Shown here: in pieces, positions 24,034 through 32,483 of the stretch | Numbering within the stretch: position 1 is the first letter of the stretch | How the letters are laid out: each line of letters opens with the position of its first letter | Assembly: GCF_900109465.1 (NCBI RefSeq) | Contig: NZ_FOAZ01000009.1 | Coordinates: 278,847 to 342,846, forward strand | DNA from: Streptacidiphilus jiangxiensis | GTDB lineage: Bacteria; Actinomycetota; Actinomycetes; Streptomycetales; Streptomycetaceae | Length of the DNA: 64,000 bases | Direction of reading: 5' to 3' | Position numbers and translations under genes: made by a program | The notes under the pieces: generated by a model | What the model saw: only the letters and a program-made list of their open reading frames with translations | Databases searched by the model: none | What the model was told of the DNA's origin: nothing

Positions 24034-25674
24034 TCACTGCAGGGGCAGCACCACCAGCGTGTTGCCCTGCAGCGCCGCGACCACGGTGGCGGCCGGGTCG
24101 TTGGCGATGTCCCACGGCTGGGTCGTCGTGCCTGGCTCGCTGTAGCTCCAGCGGTGCGAGCCGTCGGAGGTGGACAGCACCCAGAAGCCGTCCGTGCCCG
24201 AGGCGGCCGGGACGGCCAGGACGTCGGGGCCGCAGAGCGCGATCGCGCCGCCGTCGGTGCGCAGGGCGCCGGGCGAGGCGCGCCACAGGACCTTGCCGGT
24301 GGCCGCGTCGACCGCCATCACGGCGTTGGCCGGGCCGAGTTCGGTCGTGTAGAGGGTGCGGCCGTCGGGGGAGAGCAGGGAGTTGCCGAAGTGGTTGGCG
24401 GGCGTGCTGGGCTCGATCCCCCACCGTTTGGCACCCGTCCGGGCGTCCCAGGCGACGGTCTTGCGGCGCGTGGTGAAGAACAGCCCGAGCGGCTCGGAGA
24501 CGGCGTTGAACGCCACGCCCTTCGCGCCGATGCCCGGCTCGGAACCGATGTTGACGTCCCACAGGGCCTTGCCGGTGGCGGGGTCGCGGCCCGTCACGTG
24601 GTCGGCGATGTCGACGCTGAACACCAGCGGCCCCTGGCCGGCGAGGTAGGTCGGCTGGACGACCGCCAGGGTGCCGAGGCCGGGCTGGTGCCACAACAGC
24701 TGGTTGGTCGTCGCGTCCCAGGCGGCGACCGTGGCCGGGGCGCTGTTGGCCAGCCCGTCCCCACCGGGGTTGTAGGTGCCCCAGGTGTAGACGGTGTTGC
24801 CGTTGGTGGCCTCCACGACCAGGACGTACACGCCGGTGCCCGGGCCGAGGTCGCCGCTCTTGCGACCGGTGGCCGGGTCCAGGACGAGGACGGTGCCCAT
24901 CTCCTCGCGCATCACGACGTGGTTCCCGGCAACGTAGGCGTGTGTCACGTCGAGCGCCGCGACGCCGGGATACGTCCAGCTCAGGGTCCCCTTGGCCTGG
25001 TCGTACGCCTGCAGGTCGGCGATCTCGGTGGCGTCCTTGGTCACGTTGGCCTTGACCAGTACCTTGCCCGCCGCCAGCACGGGCCGCTCCTGCGAGGCCC
25101 GGTTGAGGCTGATCCGCCACAGCGGCTGCGGCGCGGTCCCGGGCGCGTGGGACGCCGGGGGCGAGGCGACGGTGGAGGCGGTGGGCTCGGCGGGCCGCGA
25201 GGAGGTACCGGCCCCCGGCCAGCCGCTCGCCCTGCCGTGCCCGGAGCCCGTGCCGCCGCGGGTCAGCGCGTATCCGAGGGCGGTGCCGCCCGCGAGGACC
25301 ACACCGGCCCCGATGCTCCACAGCAGGTGCCGTCGCCCGTGGTCGACGGCGGTCGGCTCCAGGCTGCCGCCGGTGGCGAGCGGGTCCGGGAGAGTGGGGT
25401 GCACCGGAGCGCCGGAGGCCCGCGCCGACTGCTGCGCGGGGATCCACCCGCCGGGCTGGGCGGTGGCCGCGGGTTCACCCGGGCCTTGGGACGGCCATCC
25501 CGTCGGGCCTTGGGACGGCTGCCCGGGCGGGCCCGGGGGCTGCTGCTGGTTCGGCCAGGACCATCTCGGTGCGGCGGGGGTCGCGGGTGGGCCCGTAGGG
25601 CTCGGCTGGGCAGGGGGATACGCGTCCGGCCCGGGTCGGGACGTGCCGAACTCGCCCCCGTGGTCTGGCTGCAC
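24034..25674 (-). CDS. Membrane-anchored PQQ-type beta-propeller protein
   Basis: A 546-residue protein. The N-terminal 110 residues are Pro/Gln/Gly-rich and disordered (PTGWPSQGPGEPAATAQPGGW). One transmembrane helix follows at about residues 117-136 (RRHLLWSIGAGVVLAGGTALGYAL). The rest is a beta-propeller with PQQ-like blades (AATGKVLWRASPGALRTDGGAIALCGPDVLAVPAAS). It has no kinase domain but is organised like the kinase encoded just upstream. The GTG at 25674 follows a GGAAGAGAAG ribosome-binding site. An in-frame ATG at 25719 would add residues read from the adjacent 16-bp tandem repeat, so it is less likely. Confidence 0.8.
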   Translation of the reverse strand: MQPDHGGEFGTSRPGPDAYPPAQPSPTGPPATPAAPRWSWPNQQQPPGPPGQPSQGPTGWPSQGPGEPAATAQPGGWIPAQQSARASGAPVHPTLPDPLATGGSLEPTAVDHGRRHLLWSIGAGVVLAGGTALGYALTRGGTGSGHGRASGWPGAGTSSRPAEPTASTVASPPASHAPGTAPQPLWRISLNRASQERPVLAAGKVLVKANVTKDATEIADLQAYDQAKGTLSWTYPGVAALDVTHAYVAGNHVVMREEMGTVLVLDPATGRKSGDLGPGTGVYVLVVEATNGNTVYTWGTYNPGGDGLANSAPATVAAWDATTNQLLWHQPGLGTLAVVQPTYLAGQGPLVFSVDIADHVTGRDPATGKALWDVNIGSEPGIGAKGVAFNAVSEPLGLFFTTRRKTVAWDARTGAKRWGIEPSTPANHFGNSLLSPDGRTLYTTELGPANAVMAVDAATGKVLWRASPGALRTDGGAIALCGPDVLAVPAASGTDGFWVLSTSDGSHRWSYSEPGTTTQPWDIANDPAATVVAALQGNTLVVLPLQ

Positions 25675-25694
25675 CTTCTCTTCCTTCCTCGTCA

Positions 25695-25726
25695 GTCGGT
25701 CATTCCGTCGGTCGGTCATTCCGTCG
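25695..25726 (+). repeat. Two perfect 16-bp tandem copies plus degenerate tail
   Basis: GTCGGTCATTCCGTCG occurs at 25695-25710 and 25711-25726. Weaker copies of the GTCGGTC/GTCCGT core continue to about 25765. The array fills the gap between the kinase gene and the propeller gene on the same strand, so it may form part of their intergenic mRNA. Confidence 0.75.
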
Positions 25727-25759: not shown

Positions 25760-28126
25760 TCAGTCGGCGGGCAGCGCCGCCAGGACGCCGCTGCCGGTCA
25801 GCGCGAGGACGACGCCCGCGCTCGGTACCGCCGTCAGCCGCCACTCGTTGCCGGAGTCGTCGCTGCTGTCCCGGTACTGCCATTCGTCGCCGCCGTCGGC
25901 GGACTTCAGCGCCACCAGCACCGGCTGCCCGGTGACCCCGAGCAGGATCAGGCCGCCCGCCAGCACCGGGCGGTGGTAGGTCGGGTTGGGGTAGTCGATG
26001 GTCCAGCGGGTCTGCCCGGAGCGGACGTCGGAGGCGACGAGCTGGCCGACGCCGTTGTGGACGCAGTAGGCGCGGGTGCCGTCCGCGCTGAGCGCGGTGG
26101 GGCTGTAGGAGTCCTGCCCGCCGTCGGCGGTGAGGCTGCCCTGGGACCAGAGGTGCGTTCCGGTCGACGGGTTCCATGCCGTCAGCCGGCCGCGGGCCGC
26201 CAGCAGGACGCCGCTCGCGAGGGTGAGGTCGACCGGCGGGTTGCCGGCGAGGTCGCTGCTCTCCCCGAGGCCGGCGGTCCACCGGACCGCGCCGGAGGCG
26301 ACCGTACGGGCGGTCAACTGGTGGGTGTGGTCGGCGAGGACGACCTGCTGGTCGTCGGCGACGGCGGAGGAGGGCAGGGCGTGGTCGCCGGTGCCGGTCT
26401 GCTGCTGCCACAGCCGGGCGCCGTCGGCGACCCGCACCGCGGTGAGCGTGTAGGCGGCGGGACCGCCGGTCCCGGGGGTGGCCGAGACCTGTCGGCCGAG
26501 CACGAACGCGGTCGAGGCATTGACCGTCAGTACGGACATGAAGACGTGGCCGGGATCCGGCGGGACGGTCCGCACCGGGCTGCCCGTCGCGGCGTCCACC
26601 ACGACCAGGCCTCCGTCGCGGTTGACGGCCAGCACGTCGGTGCCGAAGGCGGTCAGGTCGTTCAGGTCCCCGTACCCGGGGTCGCTCCAGCGCTGTCGGC
26701 CGGTGGCCAGGTCGAGCCCGGTCAGGGTGGCGACCCCGACGCTGCCAGCGTTGTCCTCGGTCTTCACCAGCACCGTCTGCCCGACCACCAGGGGCGTGGC
26801 GTCGGCAGGCTTGGTCAGTCGCACGCTCCACACCGGCTCGGGCGCGACACCCGCCGGTCGGGCGGACGGCTTGACGCTGAAGCCGCCCGAGGGACCGGCC
26901 GCTCCCGCTCCGCGACCGCCGCCGCCCGCGTTCGCGTGCGTCTTGCCGGTGAGGTCGTAGGCGAGCACGGCGCCGCCGCCGACCAGCGCGGTGCCGGCGG
27001 CGGCCAGCACTCCGGCGAGCAGTCGACGTCGCGACGGCGAGGCCGGCCCGGGGGAGGTGACGCCCTCGTGGCCCGGGGAGAGCAGCACCGTCCCGTCCCT
27101 GGGCCCGCCGTCGGACCAGGCCATCGAGGGCCCCGGGACGCCGTCGGCGGGCGTCGGCGCTCCCGGTCCCCAGCCGCCGGGGCTGCCGTGTCCGCCGAGG
27201 TCGCCGCCGCGCGCGCCGGGCGGGAGGCGGTTCGGCGACTCCAGGTCGACCAACTGGGCGGCGGCGCGGGCGATCGCCGCGGTCACCGGGCCGGGCAGCC
27301 ATGCTCCCGTCAGTGCGGCGGTGGCGCCCTGCGGGCACAGCACGGCCGCGAGGTCGCGTGGCGCCGGGCGCCGTGCGGGGTCCTTGGCGAAGCAGGGCGC
27401 GAGGATGTGCGTGAGGGCGGCCGGGACACCGGTCAGGTCGGGTTGGCCGTGGACGACCTGGTAGAGCTGGCCGGCCGCGCTGCCCTCGCCGAAGGGCGCC
27501 CGGCCCGTCGCGGCGTTGGCCAGCACGGAGGCGAGAGCGAACACGTCCCCGGCGGGTCCGGTTGCCGCACCCGAGGCCTGCTCGGGTGACATGAACCCCG
27601 GTGAGCCGACGACCACGCCGGTCCCGGTGATCCTGGTCCCGTCGACGGCCCGCGCGATGCCGAAGTCGATGACCCGCGGGCCCTCCGGCGAGAGCAGCAC
27701 GTTGCCGGGCTTGAGGTCGCGGTGGACCAGCCCGGCGGCGTGGATGCCGACCAGCGCCTCGGCGAGCCCCGCGCCCAGCGCCCGCACGCTCGACTCGGGC
27801 AGCGGCCCGTGGTCGGCCAACGCCTCGCCCAGCGTGGGGCCGAGGATGTAGGCGGTGGCCAGCCAGGGGGTCTGCGCCTCGGTGTCGGCGTCGACGACGG
27901 GCACCGTCCACCGGCTCGAGACAGCCCGGGCCATCTCGACCTCACGCGCGAACCGTTCGCGGAACTCGTCGTCCGAACTCAGGTCCTGGCGTACGACCTT
28001 GACCGCGACGGTCCGGCCCGTGGACGAGTGCGCCAGGTAGACCCGTCCCATCCCGCCGGCACCCAGCCGGGCCAGCAGCCGGTACTGTCCCAGCTGCCGT
28101 GGGTCGGAGTCCTGCAGTGGCCGCAC
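25760..28126 (-). CDS. Ser/Thr protein kinase with extracellular PQQ-propeller sensor
   Basis: A 788-residue transmembrane kinase. The N-terminal Hanks-type domain (about 15-265) has the G-loop LGAGGMGRVYLA, K43 (AVKVV), catalytic D137 in VHRDLKPGNVLL, D154 of DFG, and SPGFMSPEQA. A Gly/Pro linker leads to a transmembrane helix at about 369-390. The extracellular part has PQQ-like blades (GLDLATGRQRWSDPGYGDL, VASGAVRWTAGLGESSD). GTG 28126 follows GAGGGGG with 7-nt spacing; ATG 28180 in frame is an alternative. The next gene on the strand encodes a similar propeller without a kinase, a possible partner or decoy. Confidence 0.9.
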   Translation of the reverse strand: MRPLQDSDPRQLGQYRLLARLGAGGMGRVYLAHSSTGRTVAVKVVRQDLSSDDEFRERFAREVEMARAVSSRWTVPVVDADTEAQTPWLATAYILGPTLGEALADHGPLPESSVRALGAGLAEALVGIHAAGLVHRDLKPGNVLLSPEGPRVIDFGIARAVDGTRITGTGVVVGSPGFMSPEQASGAATGPAGDVFALASVLANAATGRAPFGEGSAAGQLYQVVHGQPDLTGVPAALTHILAPCFAKDPARRPAPRDLAAVLCPQGATAALTGAWLPGPVTAAIARAAAQLVDLESPNRLPPGARGGDLGGHGSPGGWGPGAPTPADGVPGPSMAWSDGGPRDGTVLLSPGHEGVTSPGPASPSRRRLLAGVLAAAGTALVGGGAVLAYDLTGKTHANAGGGGRGAGAAGPSGGFSVKPSARPAGVAPEPVWSVRLTKPADATPLVVGQTVLVKTEDNAGSVGVATLTGLDLATGRQRWSDPGYGDLNDLTAFGTDVLAVNRDGGLVVVDAATGSPVRTVPPDPGHVFMSVLTVNASTAFVLGRQVSATPGTGGPAAYTLTAVRVADGARLWQQQTGTGDHALPSSAVADDQQVVLADHTHQLTARTVASGAVRWTAGLGESSDLAGNPPVDLTLASGVLLAARGRLTAWNPSTGTHLWSQGSLTADGGQDSYSPTALSADGTRAYCVHNGVGQLVASDVRSGQTRWTIDYPNPTYHRPVLAGGLILLGVTGQPVLVALKSADGGDEWQYRDSSDDSGNEWRLTAVPSAGVVLALTGSGVLAALPAD

Positions 28127-28278
28127 GCGTGTCCCCCTCGATCGCCGTCGCCTGGCACCCCCTGACGCAGGCTCACGCATCGTAGTGGTACGGATGCGAA
28201 CCTCGCGACGGCGGAGTGACCGAGTATCACAGTACGGAATGGATGGTCGTGGCGCGCAAGGTGTCACGGATCGCGAGA

Positions 28279-28972: not shown

Positions 28973-30649
28973 ATGGCAGAGGCCGCCGACGCGGTGCGGA
29001 CCGTGATCGTGACCGTGGACGACGATCCCGCCGTCTCCCGTGCGGTGGCCAGGGACCTGCGCCGCCGCTACGGGGACCGCTACCGGGTGGTCCGTGCCGA
29101 GTCCGGCGCGTCCGCGCTGGAGGCCCTGCGGGAGCTGAAGCTGCGCGGCGTGCCGGTGGCGGCGATCCTCGCCGACTACCGGATGCCGCAGATGAACGGC
29201 ATCGAGTTCCTGGAGGAGGCGCTCGACCTCTACCCGGGTGCGCGCCGGGTGCTGCTGACCGCCTACGCGGACACCGACGCCGCCATCGACGCCATCAATG
29301 TCGTCGACCTCGACCACTACCTGCTCAAGCCGTGGGAGCCGCCCGAGGAGAAGCTCTACCCGGTCGTCGACGACCTGCTGGAGTCGTGGCGGGTCACCGA
29401 CGGCCTGGCCGTGGACACCACCAAGGTCGTCGGCCACCGCTGGTCGGCGCAGTCCTCGCAGATCCGCGAGTTCCTGGCCCGCAACCAGGTGCCCTACCGG
29501 TGGTACTCCAGCGAGGAGCCCGAGGGCAGGCGGCTGCTGGCCGCCGCGGGGGAGTCGGGGCTACGGCTGCCGCTGGTGGTCACCCCCGGCGGCACGGTGC
29601 TCGTCGAGCCGTCGGAGCGGGACCTGGCCGCGCAGGTGGGGTTGTCGACGACCCCTGCGGCCGACTTCTACGACCTGGTCGTCGTCGGTGGCGGCCCGGC
29701 CGGGCTCGGCGCGGCCGTCTACGGGGCCTCGGAGGGGTTGCGGACGGTCCTGGTGGAGCGCGAGGCGACGGGCGGCCAGGCCGGGCAGAGCTCCCGCATC
29801 GAGAACTACCTCGGCTTCCCCGACGGCGTCTCCGGCGCCCAGCTGACCGAGCGGGCCCGGCGCCAGGCCACCAAGTTCGGCGCGGAACTGCTCACCGCCT
29901 GCAAGGTCACCGGCCTGGAGGTGAACGGCGCCGCCCGCACCCTGCGGTTCGCCGACGGCGCCGCCGTCTCCGCGCAGGCCGTGATCCTGGCGACGGGCGT
30001 CTCCTACCGGCAGCTGAACGTGCCGGGCGCGGCCGAGCTGACCGGGCGCGGGGTCTTCTACGGTTCGGCTCTGACCGAGGCGGCGGCCTGCCAGGGGCAG
30101 GACGTCTACATCGTCGGCGGCGCGAACTCCGCCGGTCAGGCCGCGATGTTCCTGTCACGGACGGCCCGGCGGGTCACGCTGCTGGTGCGGGCGTCGCAGC
30201 TGGCCGCGTCGATGTCGTACTACCTGCTGCAGCGGGTCCAGGACTCCTCGAAGATCGAGGTGCGCACCGACACGGTCGTGGAGACAGCGCACGGCGAGGA
30301 GCACCTGGAGGGGCTGACCCTGCGCAACCGGGCCACCGGCGAGGCCGAGCGGGTCGACGCGCAGTGGCTGTACGTCTTCATCGGCGCCGAGCCGCTCACC
30401 GACTGGCTGGACGGCACCGTGCTGCGCGACGCGCACGGCTTCGTGCTGACCGGTCCCGACCTGACCGCCGACGGGCGCCCGCCCGCCGGCTGGACCCTGG
30501 ACCGGCCGCCGTACCACCTGGAGACCAGCGTGCCGGGTGTCTTCGCCGCGGGCGACGTGCGCGCGGAGTCCGCCAAACGGGTCGCCTCCGCCGTCGGGGA
30601 GGGCGCCATGGCCGTCATGCTCGCGCACCGCTACCTGGAGCAGTCATGA
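28973..30649 (+). CDS. Response-regulator / thioredoxin-fold / thioredoxin-reductase-like flavoprotein fusion
   Basis: A 558-residue protein of three modules. Residues 8-135 form a receiver domain with phospho-acceptor D68 (ILADYRMPQMNG), acidic D16-D18 and K119. Residues 150-225 look like a thioredoxin/glutaredoxin fold (WSAQSSQIREFLARNQVPYRWY...LRLPLVV), but the usual CxxC is SAQS-like. Residues 232-555 form a TrxR-like FAD/NAD(P)H domain (VVVGGGPAGLGAA, VGGANSAGQA, FAAGDVR), where the redox CxxC is replaced by FYGSALTEAAAC. It should bind FAD, but without the standard cysteines its electron acceptor is unclear. It is the first of three genes joined by ATGA overlaps. Confidence 0.92.
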   Translation: MAEAADAVRTVIVTVDDDPAVSRAVARDLRRRYGDRYRVVRAESGASALEALRELKLRGVPVAAILADYRMPQMNGIEFLEEALDLYPGARRVLLTAYADTDAAIDAINVVDLDHYLLKPWEPPEEKLYPVVDDLLESWRVTDGLAVDTTKVVGHRWSAQSSQIREFLARNQVPYRWYSSEEPEGRRLLAAAGESGLRLPLVVTPGGTVLVEPSERDLAAQVGLSTTPAADFYDLVVVGGGPAGLGAAVYGASEGLRTVLVEREATGGQAGQSSRIENYLGFPDGVSGAQLTERARRQATKFGAELLTACKVTGLEVNGAARTLRFADGAAVSAQAVILATGVSYRQLNVPGAAELTGRGVFYGSALTEAAACQGQDVYIVGGANSAGQAAMFLSRTARRVTLLVRASQLAASMSYYLLQRVQDSSKIEVRTDTVVETAHGEEHLEGLTLRNRATGEAERVDAQWLYVFIGAEPLTDWLDGTVLRDAHGFVLTGPDLTADGRPPAGWTLDRPPYHLETSVPGVFAAGDVRAESAKRVASAVGEGAMAVMLAHRYLEQS

Positions 30650-32133
30650 CCACCCGCCCGGCCGGTCCGGCCCTGTGCAGCGAGGAGGAGCTGCGCACGC
30701 TCTTCCTCTTCGAGAAGCTCACCCCCGAGCAGCTCCGCCGCCTGTGCCGGGACGGCCACGTCCAGTGGTTCGAGCCGGGCCCGGTGTACCGCGAGGGCGA
30801 CCCGGCCGAGAACCTGTACGTCCTTTTCCACGGCACCGTCGTGCTCTCGCGCGACGTCGGAGGCCAGGAGGTCGACGTCAGCCGCACCTCCGCGCCCGGG
30901 GTCTACGCCGGGGCCTTCCAGGCCTACCTGGGCGACCAGGTGCCGCAGGTCTACAACAACACGCTGCGGGTGACCGAGCGGTCCCGCTTCTTCGTCCTGC
31001 CCGCGGACGCCTTCGCGGAGGTCATGCACGCCTGGTTCCCGATGGCGGTCCACCTGCTGGAGGGTCTGTTCTTCGGCTTCAAGACCGCGCAGGAGGCCAT
31101 CGGCCAGCGCGAACGACTGCTCGCCCTGGGCTCGGTGACGGCCGGGCTGACCCACGAGCTCAACAACCCGGCGGCGGCCGCGATGCGCGCCACGGCGACG
31201 CTGCGCGAACGCATCGCCCGGACCCGCCGCGAGTTCGGCGCGCTCGCTGCGAAGCCGCCGCACGGGGAGGAACTCTCCTGTCTGGGCGAGCTGCAGGACC
31301 TGACGATCGGTCGGATGGGCCGGGGCGAGCCGCTCGGGCCGCTCGAGGCGGCGGATCGTGAGGACGAGGTCGACGACTGGTTGGCGGACCACGACGTCGC
31401 CGACGCCTCCCAGTTGGCACCGGTCCTGGTCCAGGCCGGGCTGGGCACCGACTGGTTGGAGGAGATCGCCGACGCCGTCCCCGAGCCCCTGCTGCCCGGA
31501 ACGCTGGACTGGCTCGGCTGCACCGTCGAGTCCGAACTGCTGCTGGGCGAGATCGAGGACGCCACCCACCGCGTCTCCGCGCTGGTGGGCGCGGCCAAGC
31601 AGTACAGCCAGCTGGACCGGGTGCCGTACCGCAACGCCGACGTGCACGAGCTGTTGGACAGCACGCTGCTGCTCCTCGACGGGAAGCTCAGCCCCGGGAT
31701 CACTGTCGTGCGCGACTACGACCGCGCCCTGCCGACCGTCCCCGGCTACCCCGCCGAACTCAACCAGGTCTGGACGAACCTCATCGACAACGCCGCCTGG
31801 GCCATGCGCAACACCGGCGACGGGACCGGAACCCTCACCGTGCGCACCGCGCGGGACGGCGACCGGGTGCTCGTGGAGTTCCGCGACACCGGGCCCGGCG
31901 TCCCCGCCGAGATCCAGAGCCGGGTCTTCGACCCGTTCTTCACCACCAAGCCGGTCGGCGAGGGCACGGGCCTCGGTCTGGACATCTCCTGGCGCATCGT
32001 GGTCACCCGGCACGGCGGCGACCTGCGCCTCACGTCCTCCCCGGGGGACACCCGCTTCCAGATCCGCCTGCCCGTCGACCCCCCACCGTCCGAGTCCGCT
32101 GTGACGACCGATCCGAAACAGGAGCCGCGATGA
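30646..32133 (+). CDS. Soluble sensor histidine kinase with cyclic-nucleotide-binding-type domain
   Basis: A 495-residue cytosolic kinase. Residues 18-135 form a cNMP/CRP-like sensor domain (LFEKLTPEQLRRLCRDG, GDPAENLYVLFHGTVVLS). The H box is GSVTAGLTHELNNPAAAAM with H170. After a long helical insert (190-305) come the N box (NQVWTNLIDNAAWAM), G1 (DTGPGVP), F box (FDPFFTTKPVG) and G2 (EGTGLGL). There are no membrane helices. The ATG overlaps the stop of the receiver-flavoprotein gene by 4 bp (ATGA), which makes that receiver its likely phosphorylation target. It also overlaps the next gene by ATGA. Confidence 0.9.
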   Translation: MTTRPAGPALCSEEELRTLFLFEKLTPEQLRRLCRDGHVQWFEPGPVYREGDPAENLYVLFHGTVVLSRDVGGQEVDVSRTSAPGVYAGAFQAYLGDQVPQVYNNTLRVTERSRFFVLPADAFAEVMHAWFPMAVHLLEGLFFGFKTAQEAIGQRERLLALGSVTAGLTHELNNPAAAAMRATATLRERIARTRREFGALAAKPPHGEELSCLGELQDLTIGRMGRGEPLGPLEAADREDEVDDWLADHDVADASQLAPVLVQAGLGTDWLEEIADAVPEPLLPGTLDWLGCTVESELLLGEIEDATHRVSALVGAAKQYSQLDRVPYRNADVHELLDSTLLLLDGKLSPGITVVRDYDRALPTVPGYPAELNQVWTNLIDNAAWAMRNTGDGTGTLTVRTARDGDRVLVEFRDTGPGVPAEIQSRVFDPFFTTKPVGEGTGLGLDISWRIVVTRHGGDLRLTSSPGDTRFQIRLPVDPPPSESAVTTDPKQEPR

Positions 32134-32483
32134 GCGCCGAGAGCCCGATCGACCCCACCGTCCCGCCGAGCGGCACCGGCTGCGTCGAATGCGACGCGGC
32201 CGGCGGCTGGTGGCTCCACCTGCGCCGCTGCGCGCGCTGCGGCCACATCGGCTGCTGCGACGACTCGCCGTCCAAGCACGCCACCGCACACGCCAAGGAG
32301 ACCGGCCACCCGGTGATCCGCAGCTTCGAACCGGGCGAGGTCTGGTTCTGGAACTACGACACCTCGGAGTTCTACGAATCCGGCCCCGACCTCGCCGCCC
32401 CCGACAGCCACCCCTTGGACCAACCCGTCCCCGGCCCGGCCGGCCGCGTCCCGGCCGACTGGTCCCAGCGGATCGGCGGTTGA
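32130..32483 (+). CDS. UBP-type zinc-finger protein
   Basis: A 117-residue protein with the UBP (BUZ) zinc-finger pattern: C18/C21, C34/C37, C42/C43, H50, H54 and H60 (GCVECDAAGGWWLHLRRC, GHIGCCDDSPSKHATAHAKETGH). In eukaryotes this fold binds the free C-terminal GlyGly of ubiquitin; bacteria like this lack ubiquitin, so a different partner or a purely structural role is likely. After the finger, VIRSFEPGEVWFWNYDTSEFYES continues the family pattern. The ATG overlaps the kinase stop by 4 bp, so all three proteins should be made together. Confidence 0.9.
   Translation: MSAESPIDPTVPPSGTGCVECDAAGGWWLHLRRCARCGHIGCCDDSPSKHATAHAKETGHPVIRSFEPGEVWFWNYDTSEFYESGPDLAAPDSHPLDQPVPGPAGRVPADWSQRIGG

Follow-up and report, generated by a model that had tools for sequence, protein, structure and literature searches.

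A candidate two-component system with a thioredoxin reductase-like flavin output and an associated UBP zinc finger in Streptacidiphilus jiangxiensis

The response regulators studied so far mostly control genes, second messengers or motility. What might be controlled by a regulator whose receiver is joined to a flavoenzyme fold, and what might a UBP-type zinc finger encoded beside it contribute? Both questions are raised by a locus of Streptacidiphilus jiangxiensis situated in a stretch of 64,000 nucleotides (assembly GCF_900109465.1, contig NZ_FOAZ01000009.1, positions 278,847 to 342,846), the whole of which was analysed and is referred to below as the window. Three open reading frames (ORFs) follow one another there on the + strand: 28973-30649, encoding a 558-residue protein made of a receiver (REC), a thioredoxin/glutaredoxin-like linker and a thioredoxin reductase (TrxR)-like FAD/NAD(P)H region (ORF, Pfam, homologues and AlphaFold2 model); 30646-32133, encoding a soluble histidine kinase of 495 residues with a CRP-like domain, a DHp domain carrying H170 and an HATPase domain (ORF, Pfam, alignment and model); and 32130-32483, encoding a UBP-type zinc-finger protein of 117 residues (ORF, Pfam and PDB sequence match). 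The reading that we favour, with a probability of about 0.6, is that the first protein is a response regulator with a TrxR-like flavin output devoid of CxxC motifs, that its D68 is phosphorylated by the soluble kinase, and that the finger serves as a docking adaptor.

The ATGA overlaps by which an earlier note on this DNA, made from the letters alone, considered the three genes to be coupled are present at 30646-30649 (regulator/kinase) and 32130-32133 (kinase/finger). At gaps below 400 bases, the same 4-base overlap joins 31 of the 83 same-strand regulator/kinase pairs counted and 10 of the 17 kinase/finger pairs, one split finger being counted twice among the 17. Among the matches listed, at least 119 other homologues of the 558-residue protein show 79-92% identity at 96-100% coverage, the best named ones coming from Kitasatospora and Streptacidiphilus (identity 92% and less). 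The near-full-length homologues and the recurring overlap indicate that the architecture is not due to chance.

The kinase and its receiver

Pfam places Response_reg (PF00072) at residues 12-124 of the regulator (29006..29344, + strand) and Pyr_redox_2 at residues 233-544. The residues typical of response regulators (acidic pair, phosphoacceptor Asp, Thr/Ser and Lys) are all present in the receiver, as D16-D18, D68 (codon GAC, 29174-29176), T96 and K119; in an alignment of 63 intact receivers D17, D68, T96 and K119 are invariant and D16 is kept in at least 90%.

Evidence that this receiver and the adjacent kinase form a dedicated pair comes from a sample of 197 Actinomycetota genomes (195 of high quality), in which 60 stretches around fingers and 46 around flavoproteins were fetched and a gene was called kinase-paired when a kinase lay within 3 kb on the same strand; the phylum statistics ignore kinship among genomes. 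All five receiver residues are intact in 24/24 evaluable kinase-paired REC-like genes vs 1/20 unpaired ones when the acidic pair is taken as residues 17/18 (Fisher p 1.4e-11), the lone unpaired case (L131) being a gene with an internal stop, and in 24/24 vs 0/20 when it is taken as residues 16/17 (p 5.7e-13). The 17/18 pair was tried first and the 16/17 pair proved cleaner; four further genes were not evaluable, and the rows excluded comprised L106, L119, L133 and L146, where the receiver was not covered, together with ten cNMP-type or partial rows. Because the site of D68 varies with the alignment used for some degenerate receivers (e.g. that of L055), T96 and K119 were also considered alone: both are kept in 25/25 receivers with a kinase vs 2/22 without, T96 itself being kept in 3 of the 22. 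Comparison within this sample thus shows that the kinase and an intact receiver are retained together and that receivers lacking the kinase are degenerate, which supports the dedicated pair proposed in the earlier note, as does the conservation of D68 among the kinase-paired members; this contrast provides a natural control. Six genomes of the same family possess the REC type, the kinase adjoining the regulator in 6/6 and the finger adjoining the kinase in 6/6, and two other same-family genomes of the sample lack it. In one of these six the finger gene is split into two frames (L101:9145-9490), through sequencing error or decay. Most of the loci L117-L139 belong to a second REC-like TrxR branch with degenerate receivers, mostly without the cysteine C373 discussed below, and with no kinase found nearby.

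The gene order, whose conservation the earlier note had asked to have checked, does recur in other genomes. A scan of named GTDB genomes yielded the best 80 of at least 586 loci, drawn in part with the receiver motif as a search pattern, so that receiver conservation in this set is biased. By record title these 80 loci come from Acidobacteriota, Cyanobacteriota, Actinomycetota, Chloroflexota, Deinococcota, Bacteroidota, Pseudomonadota, Verrucomicrobiota, Gemmatimonadota and one archaeal metagenome-assembled genome (MAG), many being MAG contigs whose origin may be wrong. A kinase lies within 3 kb on the same strand at 64/80 loci and on the other strand at 3/80; the remaining 13/80 are an upper bound for kinase-less loci, as several contigs end close by. 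A finger lies within 6 kb at 12/80. Streptomycetes show the order regulator-kinase-finger, which also occurs in two acidobacteria (L158, L171) and one cyanobacterium (L194); Mucilaginibacter (L232) has kinase-regulator-finger and a Chloroflexi MAG (L206) has finger-regulator. Plasmids of Deinococcus, Nostoc and Gloeothece carry regulator and kinase with no finger found in the stretch, and all three genes are present on a Streptomyces fungicidicus plasmid and, with 4-base overlaps, on a Tsukamurella plasmid (L239:1826-7110). The Tsukamurella trio is followed by genes for an S-(hydroxymethyl)mycothiol dehydrogenase and a metallo-beta-lactamase (MBL) hydrolase, which hints at stress by formaldehyde or at the level of mycothiol.

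As for the kinase itself, no membrane-like stretch was found in it (best 19-residue hydropathy 1.2), and Pfam identifies cNMP_binding at residues 47-127 and HATPase_c at residues 369-478 (E 6.4e-23; 31750..32079, + strand). The predicted phosphoacceptor H170 lies in the motif HELNNP (codon CAC, 31153..31155, + strand) and is invariant in the kinase alignment, being His in 97/97 adjacent kinases; these 97 were retained out of 113 kinase matches, 16 having been excluded for length, stop or distance. The N-box (residues 374-382) and G boxes are also conserved, and the spacing from H to N-box has a median of 204 residues among the kinases in which both motifs were found. HisKA (PF00512) gives no match in the window kinase and a weak one in that of L063 (E 0.016). 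The model predicts that four short helices are inserted between the two long DHp helices (residues about 202-279; 31249..31482, + strand; predicted local distance difference test score, pLDDT, of 82-98 for the block). Residues 199-278 have no Pfam match, and the structure comparison of the kinase model, which covers mainly the ATP domain, says nothing on this insert.

The earlier note had described a soluble kinase with a CRP-type sensor domain. Its solubility and CRP-like domain (30784..31026, + strand; Pfam and pattern test) stand, but a cyclic nucleotide as ligand, so far as such a sensor implies one, is not supported, since the domain lacks the Glu/Arg phosphate-binding signature: in a simple pattern test neither mark of the phosphate cassette, GE or R-x-A, is found in the window kinase. 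Both marks occur in 8 of the 97 kinases (e.g. L063 and L087), one in 42 and neither in 47. With the cassette residues missing, the ligand of the CRP-like domain in the window kinase is probably not cAMP, and cAMP sensing was set aside as an explanation.

The flavin domain and its missing cysteines

The domains named in the earlier note are recovered by Pfam, except that the fold of the linker is read from the order of elements in the model. In the AlphaFold2 model of the regulator (mean pLDDT 89.8) residues 150-221 (29420..29635, + strand) follow the order beta-alpha-beta-alpha-beta-beta-alpha of a thioredoxin/glutaredoxin fold, with SAQS at the would-be CxxC site. The linker sequence matches nothing in Pfam at E 0.1 or among PDB sequences at E 10, so that its fold is inferred; the structure comparison of the model is filled by the TrxR domain and says nothing on it. 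The TrxR-like region (29666..30646, + strand) has the fold of canonical thioredoxin reductase together with its FAD and NAD(P)H motifs (Pfam, model and structure comparison), here GGGPAGLG and GGANSA, which stay conserved in the family; its score against NCBIfam TIGR01292, 235.2 bits, is below the cut-off of 343.45.

The loss of both CxxC sites with retention of the nucleotide-binding motifs is as the earlier note had stated: SAQS occupies the position in the linker and FYGSALTEAAAC that in the flavin domain, and the CxxC dithiol at the canonical place of the NADPH domain is absent from the window protein and from the aligned rows shown. The suggestion that this double loss is special to the window protein does not hold. 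The linker has a CxxC in 0/146 family rows and the TrxR part has one anywhere in 5/146 (partial rows included), a near-absence which marks the loss as a family trait and not as local decay. The most conserved cysteine of the family is instead C373, in the motif EAAAC (codon 30089..30091, + strand; family alignment), placed by the model at the end of helix 367-373, directly before the NAD(P)H strand and away from the canonical dithiol. It is kept in 72/97 REC-type rows with a kinase nearby, 10/11 intact-receiver rows without a kinase, 10/10 cNMP-type rows and 2/4 other rows, and in only 2/24 pseudo-receiver rows. Another cysteine column, 334, is occupied in 47% of the kinase-paired class and 91% of the 11 unpaired rows, and is unconserved in the cNMP class. 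Two genomes (G013, G028) have several copies of the wider flavoprotein family. Altogether, the output of the regulator is supported as something other than DNA binding, in agreement with the earlier note.

The cNMP class is a third one, in which a CRP-like domain replaces the receiver and no kinase was found adjacent; it was assigned by match range and alignment, with Pfam run on L073 and L083 only. One such enzyme, ATII-TrxR, originates from a brine pool; it accepts both NADPH and NADH as donors and reduces 5,5'-dithiobis(2-nitrobenzoic acid) (DTNB) and thioredoxin according to passages of its description, whose authors regard cysteine pairs as its redox centres (PMC6544261). Chaperone and thioredoxin neighbours were sought in 204 loci. 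In Rhodococcus the order is clpB-trxA-UBP followed by a TrxR-like gene, with similar clusters at L073 and L140; GrpE, DnaJ, CbpM, ClpB and TrxA are encoded together at L073, L140 and L243, and CbpM, ClpB and TrxA at L151. None of these four loci is of REC type by its matches, their cNMP assignment following from Pfam (L073), annotation (L151) or similarity only (L140, L243). At all four a receiver-less TrxR-like gene lies by the stress genes, L243 and L151 being Rhodococcus plasmids; a finger accompanies it at L243, L151 and L073, and none was seen at L140. Isolated neighbours are ClpB at L154, TrxA at L044 and GrpE at L213, a REC-like locus. The activity of ATII-TrxR and the trxA-UBP-TrxR order make a thiol protein the best guess, by analogy, for the electron acceptor; against it, a chaperone/trxA cluster was seen at no REC-type locus examined.

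In the mechanism that we propose, a signal from the cytosol, sensed by the CRP-like domain and possibly also by the DHp insert, would set the autophosphorylation of H170, from which the phosphate would pass to D68. The phosphorylated receiver would reorient the cysteine-less thioredoxin-like linker against the NAD(P)H/FAD module and thereby open or close electron flow from NAD(P)H through FAD. With no CxxC available, electrons might leave the flavin directly, or via C373, to a partner thiol protein, for which the neighbouring trxA of the cNMP-fused sister branch suggests thioredoxin. The finger would recruit either the target or the kinase to the enzyme.

The UBP finger and competing readings

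Pfam zf-UBP matches residues 18-82 of the third protein (E 2.9e-14; 32181..32375, + strand). As the earlier note had it, the finger is intact: its Cys/His zinc ligands are present, and the corresponding columns are kept in 74-77 of 79 finger rows. Among PDB sequences its matches are 2ida ("Hypothetical protein", E 9.5e-25), which we take to be a bacterial protein, and USP5 (2g43 and 6dxh, about 2e-5). The matches to the aromatic pocket of USP5 are W28 (64/79 rows), W74 (70/79) and Y76 (55/79). Searches turned up no ligand for any bacterial UBP finger.

That the finger is functionally linked to the flavoprotein/kinase pair is supported by co-occurrence across genomes. Fingers are found in 46/197 Actinomycetota genomes and the REC-like TrxR in 36; of 64 finger places 61 were fetched, in 60 stretches, the other three being two weak ones and that of the window. 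Most sampled fingers lie away from family genes within the stretch fetched. The 36 REC-type and nine cNMP-type genomes (41 together) were compiled by hand among the matches listed, with at most seven candidates scored per genome, and the main count omits three weaker genomes as well as G135, whose gene is broken and adjoins a kinase. On this basis a finger is present in 34/41 genomes with the flavoprotein family vs 12/156 others (34/7/12/144, p 3.0e-21, kinship ignored); with the four weaker genomes added the counts become 34/11/12/140 (p 1.0e-18). At the level of taxonomic families, fingers occur in 21/55, including 17/17 with the flavoprotein. Outside Actinomycetota, 24/44 REC-TrxR genomes searched from the 80-locus GTDB set have a finger, and among cyanobacteria 9/20 REC-TrxR genomes have one vs 4/115 of a sample not sorted by REC-TrxR content, an enrichment that may partly reflect larger genomes (the 115 being the phylum sample without its centre). 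At L081:5974-7641 (- strand) histidine kinase and UBP finger are fused in a single ORF, the finger being C-terminal, and the locus has a further finger gene upstream of its regulator gene. The window's genome (9.5 Mb) has two more fingers, G000:C86 near 2015 (L061) and G000:C84 near 561941 (L084); the stretches fetched around these two showed neither a kinase nor a TrxR-like gene of the family.

Several observations weigh against the phosphorelay with a flavin output and a finger adaptor. A finger is adjacent at only 10 of the 26 kinase-paired loci of the Actinomycetota sample; 6/36 REC-type genomes have no finger at all, and 12/46 finger genomes lack the family. Fourteen of the 80 GTDB loci (15 by the 16/17 pair) have an intact receiver without a same-strand kinase within 3 kb, three of these having a kinase on the other strand. 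C373 is not Cys in 25/97 kinase-paired rows, one of them a gap, and the thioredoxin-like linker is known as predicted secondary structure only. The literature searched yielded no biochemical work on the REC type.

The finger might instead be a passenger in the operon, a small zinc protein of general kind with no part in the function, and the 16/26 kinase-paired loci without an adjacent finger fit this, as do six close fingers without the pair in their stretch (L040, L042, L047, L049, L050, L058) and a finger inside a gene annotated as a cation:proton antiporter. All six pair-less loci, however, are in genomes that have the family flavoprotein elsewhere, and the co-occurrence at genome level in two phyla, the kinase-finger fusion at L081 and fingers adjoining both the cNMP-fused sister enzyme and TrxR-like family genes on plasmids make a mere passenger rather improbable. 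The flavoprotein might otherwise be a redox or NAD(P)H sensor and not a working enzyme, the signal running from the flavin to the receiver and kinase; this appears unlikely to us given that the FAD and NAD(P)H motifs are conserved and that the related ATII-TrxR, in the passages cited above, turns over with DTNB and thioredoxin.

A further possibility is that the finger binds a ubiquitin-like or Pup C-terminal tail and so ties redox control to protein tagging, in line with the earlier note, which had it recognize a C-terminal tail or protein modifier. The zinc ligands and aromatic pocket positions are compatible with it, Pup is present in the window's genome, some cNMP-type loci lie within chaperone/ClpB operons, and Pup and finger are linked over the 197 genomes (p 4.8e-7) and in those without the flavoprotein family (9/47/3/97, p 0.009). 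In USP5, however, a pocket arginine holds the ubiquitin tail, and at its position (USP5 R221) the window finger has H39 (codon 32244-32246); the column is His in 61/79 and Arg in 3/79 finger rows, so that recognition of a ubiquitin-like tail is not supported. In addition, Pup matches are absent from 11/46 finger genomes, the presence of Pup has no predictive value for the finger among flavoprotein-bearing genomes (p 0.36), and the finger-flavoprotein link holds in Pup-positive (26/4/9/47, p 1.4e-10) and Pup-negative genomes (8/3/3/97, p 5.7e-8) alike. Fingers adjoin the pair in a cyanobacterium and acidobacteria too, and a GG C-terminus is found in 0/146 flavoprotein rows (4/113 kinase rows). 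Pup presence, pocket residues and C-termini therefore leave the tail reading unsupported, and we consider it very improbable. A bolder extension of the favoured phosphorelay, quite speculative and doubtful in our view, is a two-component form of protein repair, in which the relay would switch a one-cysteine, CxxC-less thiol-redox flavoenzyme and a ubiquitin-unrelated finger would deliver oxidised or misfolded clients or their thioredoxin; the CRP-fused sister in dnaK-clpB-trxA operons would then be its one-component form.

A role in anti-phage defence was rejected, none of the three proteins matching PADLOC. Upstream in the window, and judged by eye, 25760-28267 (- strand) encodes a Ser/Thr protein kinase with a pyrroloquinoline quinone (PQQ)-like propeller part, and its neighbour 24034-25719 (- strand) seems to combine a membrane part with a propeller part and to lack the kinase.

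Relation to known systems

If the phosphorelay with a flavin output is correct, the regulator would be a widespread one that gives bacteria direct control, by phosphorylation, of redox chemistry driven by NAD(P)H, and bacterial UBP fingers would gain a function that shows the role of the finger outside ubiquitin; the idea is testable with three purified proteins. Burroughs, Iyer and Aravind reportedly placed bacterial ZF-UBP domains in a cyclic-nucleotide-dependent redox signalling system in 2011 (Mol Biosyst 7:2261). As in that reported proposal, the finger is here linked to a TrxR-like enzyme and a CRP-like domain; unlike in it, the CRP-like domain of the window lacks the phosphate-binding signature. 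The kinase-paired form may already be contained in that work, and our literature searches did not find a paper describing the three-gene set.

REC-TrxR response regulators are themselves known already (PMC5847659), one TrxB-type regulator is listed in one thermophilic cyanobacterium (PMC9953108), and a table of a two-component database lists EC 1.8.1.9 (PMC2716373), to go by the passages of these sources. At least four of 120 homologues among the matches listed bear the NCBI name "fused response regulator/thioredoxin-disulfide reductase". The REC-TrxB regulators share the architecture of the window protein; the passages in question (PMC5847659, PMC9953108) are silent on a partner kinase, on the absence of CxxC and on a UBP finger. 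With reductases of the ATII-TrxR type the window protein shares a homologous linker and TrxR part, and a finger is adjacent to some of them; the ten cNMP-type rows compared, among which the ATII sequence itself does not figure, have no CxxC and keep C373 in 10/10. They differ in that their CRP-like domain is directly fused, with neither receiver nor kinase, whereas the window has a receiver and a separate kinase. To these systems the present analysis adds the co-retention of kinase and receiver and the decay of the latter, a coupling of the finger across whole genomes that goes beyond gene order, a single conserved cysteine, the insert in the DHp domain, and evidence against the cAMP and ubiquitin-tail readings.

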